Shown here: positions 4,013 through 12,315 of the stretch, in pieces | Numbering within the stretch: the stretch's first letter is position 1 | Layout of the letters: every line of letters starts with the position of its first letter | NCBI GenBank assembly: GCA_025464895.1 | Contig: JAODMG010000143.1 | Location: 1 to 40,331, forward strand | Reading direction: 5' to 3' | Source: Microbacteriaceae bacterium | GTDB lineage: Bacteria; Actinomycetota; Actinomycetes; Actinomycetales; Microbacteriaceae | DNA: 40,331 bases | The notes under the pieces: generated by a model | The model's database searches: none | What the model saw: only the letters and a program-made list of their open reading frames with translations | Told to the model about the DNA's origin: nothing | Translations under genes and position numbers: made by a program

Positions 4013-6595
4013 GTGGCATACCAACACGACAACGCCGACAACGGCGAGCAAGAGCCGGAATACAACCCTGCCCGCCTGCAGGAGAAGTGGCTCCCCGTCT
4101 GGGACGAGCTGAAGCCGTTCCGCGCCGGTGACCCGAACGACAAGCGCCCGCGCAAGTACATCCTCGACATGTTCCCGTACCCGTCCGGCGACCTGCACAT
4201 GGGTCACGCGGAGGCGTTCGCGCTCGGCGATGTGGTCGCGCGCTACTGGCGCCAGCAGGGCTTCACTGTCATGCATCCGATCGGATGGGACTCGTTCGGC
4301 CTGCCTGCGGAGAACGCGGCGATCAAGCGCGGGGTGGACCCGCGCGAGTGGACCTACGCCAACATCGAGCAGCAGAAGCAGAGCATGCGGCGCTATGCGG
4401 CATCCTTCGACTGGGATCGTGAACTGCACACGAGTGACCCCGAGTACTACAAGTGGAACCAGTGGCTCTTTCTCAAGCTGTACGAGAAGGGGCTGGCCTA
4501 CCGCAAGGACAGCTGGGTCAACTGGGATCCGATCGACCAGACGGTGCTCGCGAACGAGCAGGTGCTTCCGGATGGAACATCCGACCGCTCTGGCGCGGTG
4601 GTCGTCAAGAAGAAGCTCACCCAGTGGTACTTCAAGATCACCGACTACGCCGACCGCCTGCTCGACGACCTGAACCAGCTCGAGGGCTCATGGCCGACGA
4701 AGGTGCTGAGCATGCAGCGCAACTGGATCGGACGATCGATCGGCGCGGATGTCGACTTCGTCATCGAGGGCAGGGATGAGGCTGTCACGGTCTTCACCAC
4801 CAGGCCGGACACCCTCTATGGCACCACGTTCATGGTGGTTGCCCCCGATTCCGATCTCGCGGCCGAGTTGGTGGCCGGGTCGAGTGCGACGGTGCAGGCC
4901 AACTTCGCCGAATACCTGACCCAGGTGCAGAAGATGACCGAGATCGACCGGCAGGATGCCAGCCGGGACAAGACCGGGGTGCCGCTCGACCGGTTTGCGA
5001 TCAACCCGGCCACCGGCGAGCGAATCCCGATCTGGACGGCAGACTACGTGCTGGCCGACTACGGACATGGCGCGGTGATGGCCGTGCCGGCACACGATCA
5101 GCGCGATCTCGATTTCGCCCGCAAGTTCGGACTTCCGGTGCGGGTGGTGGTCGACACGAACGCTCCGGTGACCGGGGCGATCCCGATCATCACCGCCGAG
5201 GCCATTCTGAGCGGTGAGCTGCCGGATGACCTTCCCCCGCTCGATCCGGCCGCGACGGGTGTCGCCCTGGTCGGCGAGGGCCGGATGATCAATTCCGGTT
5301 CACTGGACGGCCTGAGCAAGAGCAACGCGATCCGCAAGATCATCGAACAGCTGGAGAAGGCGGGAACCGGCCGTGCGGCGAAGACCTACCGGCTGCGCGA
5401 CTGGCTGATCTCCCGCCAGCGATTCTGGGGAACCCCGATCCCGATTATCCACGGCGAGAACGGCGAACTCATCCCGGTGCCGGAGGACCAGCTGCCGGTG
5501 CGGCTGCCCCCGACCGACGGTCTCGACCTGAAGCCGAAGGGCACGTCGCCGCTCGGCGCGGCCGAGGACTGGGTGAACGTGCCGAACCCGATCGATGGCA
5601 CGCCGGCGAAACGGGATCCAGACACCATGGACACCTTCGTCGACAGCTCGTGGTACTTCCTGCGGTTCATGAACCCGACGGATGACACCAGGGCATTCGA
5701 TCCGGCCGAGGCGGACAAGTGGGCACCGGTCGACCAGTATGTCGGCGGCGTCGAGCACGCCATCCTGCACCTGCTGTACGCGCGATTCATCACCAAGGTG
5801 CTGTACGACCTCGGCTACGTGGGTTTCACCGAGCCGTTCAGCGCACTGCTGAACCAGGGCATGGTGCTTTCTGGCGGCTCCAAGATGAGCAAGAGCAAGG
5901 GCGGGGTCGACCTCTCGACCGAGATCGATGCCCACGGTGTCGACGCGATCCGGCTCACTATGGCTTTCGCGGGACCGCCTGAAGACGACATCAACTGGGA
6001 GGATGTGTCGGCTGCAGGTTCCGCGAAGTTCCTTGCCCGCGCCTGGCGCCTGGCCAACGACGTGGCGAGCGCTCCCGAGATCGATTGGCGCACCGGTGAC
6101 GTCGGGCTTCGTCGGGTGACACATCGATTCCTCTCGGAGGCACCGAGCCTGGTCGAAGCATTCAAGTTCAACGTCGTCGTCGCCAAGCTGATGGAGTTGG
6201 TCAGCGCGACCCGCAAGGTGATCGACAGCGGCGCCGGGCCTGCGGATGCCGCGGTGCGCGAGGCCGCGGAGACCGTTGCCCTTGCGCTCAGCCTCTTCGC
6301 CCCCTATACCGCGGAGGAGATGTGGGAGAAGCTCGGTTATCCACCGCCGGTCGCACTATTCGGCTGGCGGAAGGCCGATCCGACCCTGCTCGTTCAGACC
6401 GCGGTAACCGCCGTCGTGCAGATCGACGGCAAGGTACGCGATCGGCTCGAGGTCGCGCCGACCATTGATCCGTCGGACCTCGAGAGCCGCGCCCGCGAGC
6501 TTCCCTCTGTGGTTCGCGCGCTCGGCGAGCGAAAGATCGGCAGCGTCATCGTGCGCGCGCCCCGACTGGTGAACATCGTCACCGTTCGCGAGTAG
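4013..6595 (+). CDS. leuS: Leucyl-tRNA synthetase
   Basis: A class I aminoacyl-tRNA synthetase of 860 aa that charges tRNA-Leu in the cytoplasm. The HIGH signature is HMGH at 62-65, preceded by FPYPSGDL. The KMSKS signature is exact, at 624-628. Between them lie the CP1 editing domain (about 230-430, with [14 protein letters not shown]) and a second catalytic half ([16 protein letters not shown]). The C-terminal anticodon-binding and tail domain ends in VNIVTVRE. The start is a GTG at 4013 with a weak upstream site; the next residues AYQHDN are followed by the conserved [10 protein letters not shown]. The gene stands alone, and a palindromic repeat cluster (6638-6711) follows that may act as a terminator. 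Confidence 0.97.
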
Positions 6596-6637
6596 GCGCC
6601 GGCCTTCTCCCTCAGAGCTAATGCTCCCGGACACGCG

Positions 6638-6711
6638 CCAGTCCTTCCCCTGGCCAGCCAGTCCTCCCCTTGAAAAGCCAGCCAGTCCTCCCCTTGAAAA
6701 GGGGGAGGACT
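6638..6711. repeat. Palindromic direct-repeat cluster after leuS, upstream of comEA
   Basis: Two 20 bp units beginning CCAGTCCTCCCC lie at 6658-6677 and 6682-6701, a period of 24 bp. A degenerate third unit is at 6638-6652. The last unit forms a strong hairpin: AGTCCTCCCC (6684-6693) pairs perfectly with GGGGAGGACT (6702-6711). A related single unit is at 8365-8394, at the same place relative to the second comEA copy. It may be the leuS terminator, a repetitive extragenic palindrome, or both. Confidence 0.7.
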
Positions 6712-6758
6712 GAGCTCACATTTCCCCGGCGGCGACGTCTCACGGCTGTGCTGCATCG

Positions 6759-6764
6759 TACGTT
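6759..6764 (+). promoter_or_regulatory. Predicted -10 of comEA, leaderless
   Basis: TACGTT at 6759-6764 is followed by 6 nt and the comEA ATG at 6771. No Shine-Dalgarno is present. The second comEA copy shows the same layout with TATCGT. The -35 region is not recognisable. Confidence 0.4.
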
Positions 6765-6770
6765 TCTGGG

Positions 6771-7433
6771 ATGACACTGCCGGGCCTACTCGCCACGCCG
6801 CGCCGCAGCCGCCTCAGGGTCGGGCTCGGTGCCGCGGTGGTCCTGCTTCTGCTCGGACTCGGGATCGCCGTGTTGGTGACGGCCACCGGGTCGCACGGGA
6901 AGACCACGGCCCTCGGTGCCGGCTCGACCGCCGGCTCGACCTCCGGCCCCGCCGGATCGGGCTCGACCAGCACAGCGTCGTCATCCGCGGGCGGCTCGCC
7001 TGGCGCGACCGTCTACGTCCATGTCGTCGGGGCGGTGCTGCATCCCGGGTTGTTCCCGCTTCGGGACGGCGACCGGGTGGTGGATGCGGTGGCAGCCGCC
7101 GGCGGGTTCGCCGACACGGCCGACCAGACGCAGGTGAACCTCGCCCGTTTCGTGACCGACGGTGAACAGCTCGCCGTTCCCGTGATTGGGGCGCCGGTGG
7201 TGGCGGCCCCGGGCGCCGCGAATGGCGGAGCCGTCCCAGGCGCCAAGGTGAACCTCAACACGGCCGACCTCGCGTTGCTCGACACCCTGCCACAGGTCGG
7301 CCCGGCGATGGCCAAGCGAATTCTCGATTGGCGGACGGCCAACGGCAAGTTCACCTCGGTCGAGGACCTGATGAGTGTCACCGGCGTCGGCGACAAGACC
7401 TTCGAGCAGCTGAAAGACCTCGTCACCGTATGA
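6771..7433 (+). CDS. comEA: ComEA-type DNA-binding competence protein (intact copy 1)
   Basis: A membrane-anchored DNA-binding protein of 220 aa. The family binds incoming double-stranded DNA outside the membrane and hands it to the ComEC channel. A short basic N-terminus is followed by one membrane segment (about 20-43), then a Ser/Gly/Thr-rich linker (about 44-78), a SLBB domain (about 79-135, VYVHVVGAVLHPGLFPLRDG) and a C-terminal helix-hairpin-helix pair (about 156-220, VNLNTADLALLDTLPQVGP and then FTSVEDLMSVTGVGDKTFE). The stop overlaps the next ATG as ATGA. Downstream is only a comEC remnant. The functional comEC lies beyond a second, damaged comEA copy (8454-8833), so this is probably the working ComEA of the locus. 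Confidence 0.92.
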   Translation: MTLPGLLATPRRSRLRVGLGAAVVLLLLGLGIAVLVTATGSHGKTTALGAGSTAGSTSGPAGSGSTSTASSSAGGSPGATVYVHVVGAVLHPGLFPLRDGDRVVDAVAAAGGFADTADQTQVNLARFVTDGEQLAVPVIGAPVVAAPGAANGGAVPGAKVNLNTADLALLDTLPQVGPAMAKRILDWRTANGKFTSVEDLMSVTGVGDKTFEQLKDLVTV

Positions 7434-7612
7434 CGGTCGACCTCCGCCTGGCCCTTCCTGCGGGGATCGCCTGGATTGCTGCCGGGGTGTTCCTGGGCGT
7501 TCCGGCCGCCCTGCCGGTGTTCGCCGTCGTGATCGTGACGGCAACCCTTCGACTACGCTATGGCTCCGTGGAGCTCAAGCGTGAACGGATCGACTGTGTC
7601 TACAAGTGGTGA
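7430..7612 (+). pseudogene. comEC: Truncated comEC remnant (copy 1)
   Basis: The reading frame begins at the ATG overlapping the comEA stop, just as intact comEC does at 8830. Its first residues MTVDLRLALPAGIAWIA match MTVDLRLAIPAGIAWIA of the intact copy. After PAALP it jumps to FAVVIVTAT, which corresponds to FAVVIATAA some 44 residues further on in the intact protein. It then leaves homology and stops after 60 codons. In the intact copy, GCCGTCGT occurs at 8920-8927 and 9052-9059, flanking the missing part, so deletion between short repeats is a plausible cause. The membrane channel and metallo-beta-lactamase parts are absent, so it cannot act as ComEC. Confidence 0.85.
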
Positions 7613-7724
7613 TCTCGTAGTGGATGCCCGATCGTCGGCCAGGGCAAGGTCATTGTCAACGGAACGTCCTCGCTGGATACGTCAATCCAGGCAGGTGCGT
7701 TCGCCACGTCGGAGGCAGTGAACC

Positions 7725-8108
7725 TTGGCTAAAGCAGCAGGTGCAAACAATCGGACGGGATTCAGCAGGTCGGCGCTACACCTAATCTGGACGCTGCCGC
7801 TCGCGCTTCTGATCGGATACCCGCTCTGGTTTGCGGCCCGGTTGGGCTGGTGCGGCTACGGCGGATGTTTCGGCTCGCACGAGCCGGATCAGCAGGCGAA
7901 CCTTGTACTGGGCATCGGGCTCGCGATACTGTGCGCACTGCTGGTGATCGCCGCAATCACGATCCCACCGTGGTTCCACCCGTGGTGGGTGCGACTGATC
8001 GCGGCGATCGTGCTTGCGGTTGTAGCCTCCTACGTCTTCGGGTGGGGGCGCGCGCCGTCGGTCATCCCCTTCCTGCCCACGATCCCGTTCGGCGGAATCC
8101 GGTTCTGA
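7725..8108 (+). CDS. Hypothetical small membrane protein between the two com copies
   Basis: A 127 aa protein that I do not recognise. It has three likely membrane segments (about 18-38, 60-82 and 88-107) joined by a Cys-containing loop (GWCGYGGCFGSHEPD, Cys48 and Cys53), and it ends in a Pro/Phe-rich tail (SVIPFLPTIPFGGIRF). The start is a TTG at 7725 with a good GGAGG site at 7711-7715, and hydrophobic codon choice is sustained through the frame, so it looks like a real gene. It lies in the segment unique to the space between the duplicated comEA-comEC copies and has no counterpart beside the second copy. Upstream (7613-7724) I see only a 53-codon Arg-rich open frame of doubtful value. Function unknown. 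Confidence 0.6.
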   Translation: MAKAAGANNRTGFSRSALHLIWTLPLALLIGYPLWFAARLGWCGYGGCFGSHEPDQQANLVLGIGLAILCALLVIAAITIPPWFHPWWVRLIAAIVLAVVASYVFGWGRAPSVIPFLPTIPFGGIRF

Positions 8109-8364
8109 CGATGCTCAGATCCGGCGGTAGTTCGCGTCACTGACGTGCTCGAGCGAGGTGGCGTCCACACATCGCCTACTTGGGGCTATAGGAACTGCGC
8201 ATTGGCGGAGCTCAACCGGGGACGTATGTTGGGCTGCCATCGGCCGTCATCAGCTCTAGGAACCCACGACTGTTCAATCCATGCACCGGGGGGGAGAGGG
8301 TTGAATTTCGCGCTGATGGAATTCTCCGGGTGGGTTGCTCTCCTCGGGGTAATCCCCCTGAAAG

Positions 8365-8394
8365 CCAGTCCTCCCCTTGACTTAGGGAAGGACT
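8365..8394. repeat. Single palindromic repeat unit upstream of comEA copy 2
   Basis: CCAGTCCTCCCCTTGA at 8365-8380 repeats the unit found upstream of comEA copy 1. AGTCCTCCCC (8367-8376) pairs with GGGAAGGACT (8385-8394) with one mismatch. Its placement suggests it was carried along in the duplication of the locus. Confidence 0.6.
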
Positions 8395-8441
8395 GAGTCC
8401 CCAGTTCGCCCGCGCCGGGATCCAGTTGTCCCGCTTCGACA

Positions 8442-8447
8442 TATCGT
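8442..8447 (+). promoter_or_regulatory. Predicted -10 of comEA copy 2
   Basis: TATCGT at 8442-8447 lies 6 nt before the ATG at 8454, the same layout as copy 1. If active, this promoter would drive the intact comEC through the broken comEA frame. Confidence 0.4.
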
Positions 8448-8453
8448 TCGGGC

Positions 8454-8833
8454 ATGACACTGCCGGGCCTTCTCGCTGCGCCTCGCCGCGGTCGCCTGCG
8501 GGTCGGGTTTGGGGTGGCAGTGATCCTGCTACTGTGCGGGCTCGGGATCGCAGTGCTGGTGACGGCCACCGGTTCGCACGGCGAGACCACGGTGGTCGGT
8601 TCCGGCCCGAGGGTCGGCGGCCGGACCGCGGCGGCCCTCGGCGCCAAGGTGAATCTCAACACCGCCGACCCAGCCTGCTCGACACCCTGCACATGGTCGG
8701 ACCGGCGATGATCAAGCGAATCGTCGATTGGCGGACGGCCAACGGCAAGTTCACCTCGGTCGAGGACCTGATGAGTGTCACCGGCGTCGGCGACAAGACA
8801 TTCGCGGAGCTGAAAGACCTCGTCACGGTATGA
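8454..8833 (+). pseudogene. comEA: Frameshifted and shortened comEA (copy 2)
   Basis: The first 50 residues match intact ComEA closely (MTLPGLLAAPRRGRLRVGFG against MTLPGLLATPRRSRLRVGLG, then the same membrane segment and LVTATGSHG). The linker and the whole SLBB domain are missing: the frame goes from the linker straight to AALGAKVNLNTADPA. There a 1 nt loss relative to copy 1 shifts the frame near 8671, and the original frame stops at 8711. The helix-hairpin-helix region continues in another frame (LLDTLHMVGPAMIKRIVDW to LKDLVTV) up to the TGA at 8831-8833, overlapping the comEC start exactly as in copy 1. A sequencing error could explain the frameshift but not the missing SLBB domain. Confidence 0.88.
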
Positions 8834-11259
8834 CGGTCGACCTGCGTCTCGCTATTCCGGCCGGCATCGCCTGGATCGCGGTCTGGATACTCCTGGGGAT
8901 TCCCGCCGCCCTGCCATTAGCCGTCGTCGTCTGCTGGGCCATGGCCGCGGCCGGCACAGTGGTTGCGGTCCTGGCCAGGCGATGGGGTAAATCAGCGCGC
9001 ACGCGGCGCAGGGGCATTGTTGGCGCTGGCTGGAGAAGATGGGCGGCGTTCGCCGTCGTGATCGCGACGGCGGCTGCCATGGTGTTGAGCTCCGCGGCGG
9101 TGCGCGACCAGCAGCGGCATCCGGACTGGATGACGGCCGCGGCGTCCTCCGGCCGTTTCGTCGTGGCGACCGCGACCACGACCGAGACCCTGCACGCCGG
9201 CCAGGACCGGTTCGACGCGACCCTCGAGTCGGTGACCATCGGCGGGCGGACCACTGCGGTGGAGGTGCCGGTCACCGTGTTCGGCTCGGCGCAGTCCTCG
9301 CCAGCGCAGTCCCCAGCAGCGCAGTCGGCAACTGTCGTCGGACTCGGGAGCACGATCACCCTGTCCGGAACCCTCGCCGACACGGATCCGGGGGAGTCCA
9401 GTGCCTATCTGTTCTTCAGCTCGTCCTCTGCCGCGACCTCAGTGGTGAGCGAGCCTCCGTGGTTCCTGGACTGGGCCAACGCGCTTCGCGCCGGATTCCA
9501 GGATGCCGCGGCCGCTCTCCCGGGAGACGGGGCGGGGCTCCTTCCCGGGCTGGCGATCGGCGACACCAGCGCGGTGAGCGCGGAGCTGAATTCCGCGATG
9601 AAGACGAGTTCTTTGAGCCATTTGACTGCCGTATCCGGTGCGAACTGTGCCGTGATCATCGGCCTGATCATGATCGCCGGCGGCGCCCTGGGCGTCCGGC
9701 GAGGGCTACGGGTGTCCGCGTCCCTCGCCGTTCTGCTCGGGTTCGTGGTGCTGGTCACGCCCCAGCCGAGCGTGCTTCGCGCTGCGGTGATGGCGGTGCT
9801 GGTGCTGGTCGCACTCGGGAGTGGCCGGCCGGCTCGCGGCATCCCGGTGCTCGCGCTCGCGGTTCTCGTGCTGCTGGTCACCGACCCGTGGCTGTCGCGC
9901 AGCTACGGGTTCATCCTCTCGGTGCTCGCGACCGGCGGCCTGCTGGTGCTGGCCAGGCCGCTGACCACCCTGCTCTCCCGCTGGATGCCGGTGGCCGTCG
10001 CGGCGGTGATCTCCATCCCGCTCGCGGCCCAGCTGGCCTGCCAGCCGGTGCTCATCCTGCTGAACCCGTCGATTCCGTTGTATGCAGTGCCCGCGAACGT
10101 CCTGGCGGAACCGGCAGCACCGCTCGCGACGGTGCTCGGACTCGCCGCCTGCGCCATCCTGCCGCTGTGGCCGTTCCTCGGCGATCTGATCGCCGCGATG
10201 GCCTGGGTTCCGTCGAGCTGGATCGCCGCCGTCGCCCGGTTCTTCTCCGGACTGCCCGGCAGCAGTCTCCCGTGGCTGTCCGGGGCGGCAGGGGCGGTGC
10301 TCGTAGCCATGATCGTGCTGCTCGCGCTGGTGGTCCTGCTGCGGCCGGATGCACGCTGGAGCCGGTCGCGCAGGATCGGGACGGCGGCACTCGCGGTGAT
10401 CCTCGTGGCCTATCCGAGCATCCTGGCCGGGGATCGCATCCGACAGGAGATCTCCCGTCCATCCGATTGGGAGATTGCCGCCTGTGACATCGGGCAGGGC
10501 GACGCAGTTCTGGTGCGGAGCGGCGGGATGGTCGCGCTGATCGATGCAGGCCCGGAGCCCGCCAGACTGAGCCGATGCCTGGACATCCTGGGCATCGGGC
10601 GAATCGACCTGCTGGTTCTCACGCACTACGACCTCGATCACGTCGGTGGCGCCCCTGCGCTCTTCGGACGAGTCGACCGGGCGATTATCGGCCCGGCCGC
10701 CGACGCGAACGACACCCGCCTGGCCGGTCAACTGCGACACTCCGGGGCCGAGGTGGACCAGGTCAATCTCGGCGACACCGGCCGACTCGGCGAGCTTCGC
10801 TGGCAGGTGCTCTGGCCGCCGGCCAGGCTGGGCGGCATCCAACTGGGCAACGACGCGAGTGTCACCCTGGAATTCGGTGGCGTCGGCACCTGCGGCAACG
10901 GGTGTCTCAGCTCACTGTTCCTCGGCGATCTCGGGGAGGAACCGCAGGCCAGGATGATGGCCGCCAACCGGCTCCTGGCGGCGGTAGATGTCGTGAAGGT
11001 CGCGCATCACGGATCCGCCGACCAGAACAGCCGCCTGTACGACAAGGTGCGGGCGGCCGTCGGGATCATCGGGGTCGGGAAGACGAATACCTACGGCCAT
11101 CCGACCGAGGCACTGTTGGCGATGCTGGTGCACTCGGGGACGTTGGCGACTCGCACCGATCGCGACGGGATGATCCTCATCTCGCCACGGCTGGACGGCA
11201 CTGTCAGCGTCTGGACCGAGAAGGATGGGGCGGTGAAGTCTGACGGTGCTCGCGAATAA
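8830..11259 (+). CDS. comEC: ComEC/Rec2 competence DNA channel (intact copy)
   Basis: An 809 aa membrane protein that in competent bacteria forms the channel passing single-stranded DNA into the cytoplasm. Hydrophobic segments at the N-terminus are followed by an OB-like periplasmic region (about 95-200), then the Competence domain with many membrane segments (about 225-535; SGANCAVIIGLIMIAGG), and a C-terminal metallo-beta-lactamase domain (about 550-800) with THYDLDH at 598-604 and KVAHHGSADQN further on. The ATG at 8830 overlaps the comEA-frame stop as ATGA; a longer frame from 8728 only reads through the shifted comEA. holA follows after 39 bp, the usual comEC-holA order. Length and motifs are complete, so it should be functional. 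Confidence 0.94.
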   Translation: MTVDLRLAIPAGIAWIAVWILLGIPAALPLAVVVCWAMAAAGTVVAVLARRWGKSARTRRRGIVGAGWRRWAAFAVVIATAAAMVLSSAAVRDQQRHPDWMTAAASSGRFVVATATTTETLHAGQDRFDATLESVTIGGRTTAVEVPVTVFGSAQSSPAQSPAAQSATVVGLGSTITLSGTLADTDPGESSAYLFFSSSSAATSVVSEPPWFLDWANALRAGFQDAAAALPGDGAGLLPGLAIGDTSAVSAELNSAMKTSSLSHLTAVSGANCAVIIGLIMIAGGALGVRRGLRVSASLAVLLGFVVLVTPQPSVLRAAVMAVLVLVALGSGRPARGIPVLALAVLVLLVTDPWLSRSYGFILSVLATGGLLVLARPLTTLLSRWMPVAVAAVISIPLAAQLACQPVLILLNPSIPLYAVPANVLAEPAAPLATVLGLAACAILPLWPFLGDLIAAMAWVPSSWIAAVARFFSGLPGSSLPWLSGAAGAVLVAMIVLLALVVLLRPDARWSRSRRIGTAALAVILVAYPSILAGDRIRQEISRPSDWEIAACDIGQGDAVLVRSGGMVALIDAGPEPARLSRCLDILGIGRIDLLVLTHYDLDHVGGAPALFGRVDRAIIGPAADANDTRLAGQLRHSGAEVDQVNLGDTGRLGELRWQVLWPPARLGGIQLGNDASVTLEFGGVGTCGNGCLSSLFLGDLGEEPQARMMAANRLLAAVDVVKVAHHGSADQNSRLYDKVRAAVGIIGVGKTNTYGHPTEALLAMLVHSGTLATRTDRDGMILISPRLDGTVSVWTEKDGAVKSDGARE

Positions 11260-11298: not shown

Positions 11299-12315
11299 GT
11301 GGCAGGCAAGGCGCAGCCGAAAACCGCGGTGGCGATACCGCAGCTGAGCTGGCAAAAAGTGCGTCCCGCGCGGGTGGTGCTCGTCTCCGGTACCGAGGGC
11401 GTGCTCGCCGACAGGGCCATCCGGCTGCTTCGGGACACCCTTCGCGCCGAGGATCCGAGCCTCGAGGTCAGCGACATCGAGGCCGACGACTATGCCCCTG
11501 GCGAGCTGCTCACACTGGCCAGCCCTTCGCTGTTCGCCGAGCCACGTTTCATCCGGGTGACGAACGTCGAGAAGTGCACGGATGTCTTCATCACCGAGGC
11601 CATGGACTACCTCCAGTCGCCGGCCGACGACACCTACCTGGTGCTCAGGCACGGTGGCGGAGTCCGCGGCAAGAAACTGCTCGACGCCGTGCGTTCCGGC
11701 CTCGGCGGCGGCATCGAGATCGTCTGCGCGGAGCTGAAGAAAGACACGGAGAAGTTCGATTTCGCCGCGGCCGAGTTCTCGACCGCCGGACGCCGGGTCA
11801 GCGCGGGCGCATTGCGAGCGCTCACCGCGGCGTTTTCCGACGACCTGGCCGAGCTGGCCTCCGCCTGCCAGCAGTTGCTCGCGGATGCCAGCGAGGAGAT
11901 CACGGAGGCGATCGTCGAGAAGTACTACTCGGGACGGGTGGAGACGAATGCCTTCCGGGTCGCGGATGTCGCCATCTCCGGTCGGCACGGCGAGGCGCTC
12001 ATCCTGCTGCGTCACGCCATCGCGTCCGGCGCTGACCCGGTTCCCATCGTCGCCGCCTTCGCCAGCAAGCTGCGCACCATGGCGAAGATCGCCGGCTCAC
12101 GCGGTGGCTCTGGGCAGCTCGGCCAGCAGTTCGGCCTTGCACCGTGGCAGGTCGACCGGGCGCGCCGCGACCTGCAGGGCTGGAGCGACGCCGGCCTCGG
12201 ACGCACCATCGAACTGCTGGCGGAGACGGATGCGGCAGTCAAGGGTGCGGGCAGGGACCCGGTCTTCGCGCTCGAGCGCATGGTCAATGTCGTGAGCGCT
12301 CGGGGCGAGCTCTAG
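11299..12315 (+). CDS. holA: DNA polymerase III subunit delta
   Basis: A 338 aa clamp-loader subunit. Delta opens the beta sliding clamp within the DnaX complex during replication. The N-terminal AAA+-like part contains RVVLVSGTEGVLADRAIRLL (about 25-44), and the central part holds DTYLVLRHGGGVRGKKLLDA. The C-terminal collar domain includes AFASKLRTMAKIAG and WQVDRARRDLQGW, typical of HolA. The start is a GTG at 11299 preceded by GGAGGAG at 11287-11293. It follows comEC by 39 bp, an arrangement common in actinobacteria, and may share its transcript. Confidence 0.92.
   Translation: MAGKAQPKTAVAIPQLSWQKVRPARVVLVSGTEGVLADRAIRLLRDTLRAEDPSLEVSDIEADDYAPGELLTLASPSLFAEPRFIRVTNVEKCTDVFITEAMDYLQSPADDTYLVLRHGGGVRGKKLLDAVRSGLGGGIEIVCAELKKDTEKFDFAAAEFSTAGRRVSAGALRALTAAFSDDLAELASACQQLLADASEEITEAIVEKYYSGRVETNAFRVADVAISGRHGEALILLRHAIASGADPVPIVAAFASKLRTMAKIAGSRGGSGQLGQQFGLAPWQVDRARRDLQGWSDAGLGRTIELLAETDAAVKGAGRDPVFALERMVNVVSARGEL

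Follow-up and report, generated by a model that had tools for sequence, protein, structure and literature searches.

Two diverged comEA-comEC units, each with one whole gene, between leuS and holA in a Microbacteriaceae draft genome

Analysis of the window, i.e., the entire 40,331-nt stretch of the Microbacteriaceae draft contig JAODMG010000143.1, revealed two homologous comEA-comEC units that follow one another in the same orientation between leuS (4013..6595) and holA (11299..12315), with all of these genes on the (+) strand. The source assembly comprises 2.83 Mb in 239 contigs, with an estimated completeness of 87% and a reported contamination of 0.6%. The order leuS-comEA-comEC-holA, which characterizes the Microbacteriaceae locus, is present here. 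Open reading frames, domain matches, and alignment of the copies confirmed what the first-pass annotation had observed, namely, that each unit retains one whole gene and that comEA joins comEC by a GTATGA overlap in both. The gene anatomy it described also held, but the duplicated unit begins ~90 bp further upstream than proposed, at a hairpin that precedes both comEA copy 1 (6683..6712, (+) strand; −30.2 kcal/mol for 6675-6725) and copy 2 (8366..8395, (+) strand; −21.3 kcal/mol for 8358-8405). Homology between the copies, comprising 255 nt at 85% and 172 nt at 80% in addition to the comEA-upstream hairpin, is far above chance. A pattern search placed the hairpin only at these two positions of the locus and nowhere else in the genome, which rules out a dispersed hairpin repeat as the cause of the doubling. 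The hairpin at 6683-6712 is perhaps the leuS terminator. Tandem partial repeats of GCCAGTCCTCCCCTTGAAAA at 6640-6712 precede the hairpin of comEA copy 1, and none were seen before copy 2.

In the first unit, comEA is intact and extends from the ATG at 6771 to the TGA at 7433 (6771..7433; 220 aa). Its product has the architecture of a Gram-positive-type ComEA, i.e., an N-terminal hydrophobic anchor, an SLBB/OD domain (SLBB, 1.4e-14), and a C-terminal HhH region (HHH_3, 1.1e-22), and it matches TIGR01259 comE at 9e-29, yet below the family cut-off. The adjoining comEC (7430..7612) starts at the ATG at 7430 within the GTATGA overlap and is a stub of 60 codons, with an internal deletion of ~114-130 bp near codon 28 and homology to comEC that stops at ~7541. 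A profile search returned no domain match for this stub.

The second unit shows the opposite state. Its comEA starts at the ATG at 8454 and reads into the beginning of the HhH region (KVNLNTAD), where the frame breaks and closes at the TGA at 8709-8711, while the HhH frame itself carries on across 8672-8833. Across the SLBB region, the offset between the copies shrinks from 1683 to 1401, and a single additional base brings it to 1400; therefore, copy 2 is short of 282 bp (an in-frame deletion of 94 codons) plus 1 base. The earlier description of this gene as frameshifted was thus correct with respect to the 1-nt frameshift but incomplete, since an in-frame deletion of the SLBB region is also present; the N-terminal part (8454..8711, (+) strand) encodes the anchor fused in frame to the HhH start. 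With SLBB deleted and the frame broken, copy 2 lacks the Gram-positive-type architecture. The premature stop overlaps the ATG (8708-8710) of a 41-codon ORF in the HhH frame (8708..8833, (+) strand), which reaches the GTATGA junction with comEC. By our estimate, such an ATGA overlap at 8708-8711 is not improbable by chance. Because the HhH frame could restart at this ATGA and ends in GTATGA, the translation of comEC could remain coupled despite the truncation of comEA. The comEC of this unit is intact (8830..11259; 809 aa) and has the domain content of comEC/Rec2, with matches to PF03772 (Competence, 8.6e-42) and PF00753 (metallo-beta-lactamase, 6.2e-11); against TIGR00361 it scores 1.6e-50 and 172 bits, under the cut-off of 190. 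It is the sole comEC in the assembly.

A comEA match was found in 55 of 58 related genomes, all from outside the source's genus, and a comparable doubling in none of the 55. Additional comEA matches among the relatives proved to be either weak HhH hits within long frames of 794-1092 aa or a second fragment of the same gene. In the 31 comEA loci examined (29 from the 58 related genomes and 2, at 50-55% identity, from a contig scan), leuS precedes and comEC follows comEA wherever this could be scored, and most relatives show leuS-comEA-comEC. The comEC-holA order also occurs at two of these loci, L034 and L035, the latter (Amnibacterium sp. CER49) displaying the full leuS-comEA-comEC-holA order, and a putative 4-nt start/stop overlap is present at the end of comEA in 25 of the 31. 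The expectation that relatives carry one copy was therefore borne out, both by the 55 genomes with a comEA match and by the 31 loci. A literature search by title and abstract returned no paper on a tandem duplication of comEA/comEC.

Outside a 76-nt tract described below, the copies are ~80% identical. With the tract left out, dS between them is 0.47, dN is 0.13, and omega is 0.28, in rate tests that cover ~117 aligned codons, and when one copy was simulated as neutral over the whole period, at most 1% of runs reached an omega as low as 0.28. Since a dS of ~0.47 is combined with a purifying omega, the copies appear to have diverged mostly as constrained, working genes, with decay coming late. 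The duplication had been described as recent, which a dS of this size does not support; the decay, unlike the duplication, may be recent. When the shared tract is masked, the comEA tree places the two copies as sisters (support 100/97), with protein branch lengths of 0.30 for copy 2 and 0.018 for copy 1. The long protein branch of copy 2, together with the loss of near-invariant P and A from its HhH region, is fitting for relaxation. At the start of comEC, the copy 1 stub agrees with L034 slightly better than the intact copy 2 gene does, which, in this short stretch, argues against long decay of the stub. With regard to origin by duplication within the lineage versus acquisition, the copies are sisters, yet their dS is 0.47 and the relatives all belong to other genera.

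The 76-nt tract (hereafter R) is located within the HhH region, where 7324..7399 (R1) and 8724..8799 (R2), both on the (+) strand, are exactly identical, while the other aligned blocks are 78-93% identical. Strong conservation was ruled out as the cause: among relatives, the tract region is 65% conserved versus 64% in the flanks, and no pair of relatives has an exact HhH match longer than 29 nt. The simplest reading is a recent exchange between the copies, by gene conversion or crossover, the alternative being a crossover made by the assembler. The starts of R1 and R2 are exactly 1400 nt apart, every lesion falls between them, and the outer halves are whole. Because all of the damage is confined in this way, a single R1-R2 recombination would excise 1.4 kb and yield one whole operon with a GTATGA junction.

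This arrangement is also what integration at R would produce, a tentative alternative to which we give roughly one chance in four. A native single operon, consisting of the 5′ half of copy 1, R, and the comEC of copy 2, would have received a degenerate, ~80% identical comEA-comEC remnant together with the unrelated DNA that now separates the copies, so that R would flank a 1.4-kb insert as direct repeats and the complementary losses would be two sides of one event. The position of all lesions between the R tracts and the restoration of the operon by an R1-R2 exchange favor it, as does the unrelated DNA between the copies (see below). However, the donor would have to be circular or concatenated, gene conversion explains R alone equally well, the first 28 codons of the comEC stub are no more degenerate than those of their partner, and the omega of this first-28-codon block, 0.16, speaks against a donor copy that had long been dead.

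The DNA between the copies, termed X (7542..8359, ~0.8 kb, not assigned to a strand), is unrelated to comEA or comEC, and nothing else in the genome matches it closely. The initial portion resembles part of a surface-protein-like gene, of which it would be the decayed 3′ end, and the second portion matches a small membrane-protein gene, with an ORF of 127 aa (7725..8108, (+) strand) that has weak paralogues elsewhere in the same genome. A relative from another genus (G028) carries the same pair of genes in the same order, in a stretch (L050 1442-4547) where genes for a phage-type integrase and a Fic-domain protein also lie, which points to a mobile island; it is this counterpart near an integrase, in another genus, that speaks for integration at R. 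X itself is best viewed as a probable relic of a gene pair foreign to the locus. Its ends share no direct 7-nt or inverted 8-nt words, which speaks against an insertion sequence; neither leuS nor comEC matches it, which speaks against remains of these genes; and searches for phage and plasmid matches returned none and one weak match, respectively. Small membrane proteins of 110-127 aa form a loose family scattered in the genome (7725-8108; L048 2269-2613 on the (−) strand; L049 1568-1900 and 1910-2242). On contig C221, the family is doubled in tandem.

An assembly or binning artefact, in which short-read assembly would have run two related sequences (from strains or paralogues) together through the 76-nt tract, is unlikely, at around one chance in eight. 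The draft state of the genome (239 contigs) is in its favor, and a perfect 76-nt repeat suits a short-k crossover, which would yield complementary halves. However, judging from the layout, two linear loci crossed at R alone could not give the observed order; X must adjoin the hairpin before copy 2, so that at least two false joins would be needed. The reported contamination (0.6%) and the flanks, which are normal leuS and holA, also stand against it.

Taken together, the complementary lesions in the aligned copies, the single copy in relatives, and the sister relationship of the copies (100/97) support duplication with complementary loss, as the first-pass annotation had proposed. Its further description as a tandem duplication fits the homologous direct units and their non-overlapping lesions, none of which occur in relatives, but a plain tandem does not account for the later exchange tract or the ~0.8 kb of foreign DNA. 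We consider it probable, at somewhat better than even odds, that two complete, diverged comEA-comEC pairs underwent complementary decay. The locus would formerly have held both pairs whole in direct tandem, having diverged under purifying selection, whether as a duplicate long maintained within the lineage or, about equally likely, before uptake from a sister lineage, in which case the second copy would have entered by uptake and been integrated by recombination next to the native copy. Subsequently, comEA copy 2 would have lost its SLBB (oligomerization) domain by in-frame deletion and acquired the frameshift, and comEC copy 1 would have been cut off by a rearrangement joining it to the unrelated relic gene pair. 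A later copy-to-copy exchange, by gene conversion or crossover, would then have erased the differences over 76 nt of the HhH region. At present, the cell would rely on the comEA of copy 1 and the comEC of copy 2, the latter probably translated by coupling, as the truncated comEA frame ends in ATGA, the HhH frame can restart there, and GTATGA leads into comEC. A more speculative version, to which we give about one chance in four, is that a DNA-uptake locus was itself changed by taking up a sister species' own version, with exchange in the HhH region giving a mosaic between collapsible direct repeats. If true, a single step could return such a mosaic to one intact operon.

It had also been suggested that the separation of comEA from comEC, with a second promoter between them, could change their relative expression. 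A scan for sigma-70-type sites revealed no sigma-70-like promoter in 6500-9000, including the region before copy 2; the second promoter is therefore unsupported. We regard selection for such an expression shift as highly improbable: ~1.4 kb and a second hairpin do lie between the two intact genes, but no promoter-like site was found, the layout is known from a single genome, and ordinary decay accounts for it.

In comparison with other cases of reciprocal degeneration of duplicates, a different gene is likewise intact in each copy. However, an operon of two genes forms the unit here, its copies are old as judged by divergence, and a recent exchange tract links them. The division of a two-gene operon between two copies is easy to read at this locus, where the exchange tract dates the contact between the copies separately from their divergence. 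The case is ordinary in kind and instructive in detail, and its consequence beyond the source genome is modest.

The organism may be naturally competent, and ATPases of the T2SSE family are present in the genome. Searches with PF02481 and TIGR00732 did not find dprA in the source genome, which is 87% complete, and found it in 19 of the 19 relatives searched. Its absence is likely due to the incompleteness of the draft; a loss of dprA, if real, would bear on competence. Orthologues of comEA, comEC, and dprA occur in Micrococcus luteus, in which deletion of comEC abolishes transformation (PMC4322843). The locus resembles the actinobacterial comEA-comEC operon, e.g., that of M. luteus, in gene order, in the anchor, SLBB, and HhH parts of ComEA, and in the Competence and metallo-beta-lactamase domains of ComEC, and differs from it in having two copies with one whole gene each and no dprA found in the incomplete draft.

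In Gram-positive bacteria, the oligomerization domain of ComEA is required for transformation, whereas Gram-negative ComEA (of the Vibrio cholerae type) is a stand-alone DNA-binding domain (PMC9747964). Judging by its position, this middle domain (OD) appears to correspond to the Pfam SLBB match found here. With an anchor, an HhH region, and no middle domain, comEA copy 2 resembles the SLBB-less Gram-negative ComEA; unlike the latter, it arose by deletion, is frameshifted, and has kept the anchor. The copy 2 relic thus records an in-frame loss of the middle (oligomerization) domain of ComEA.
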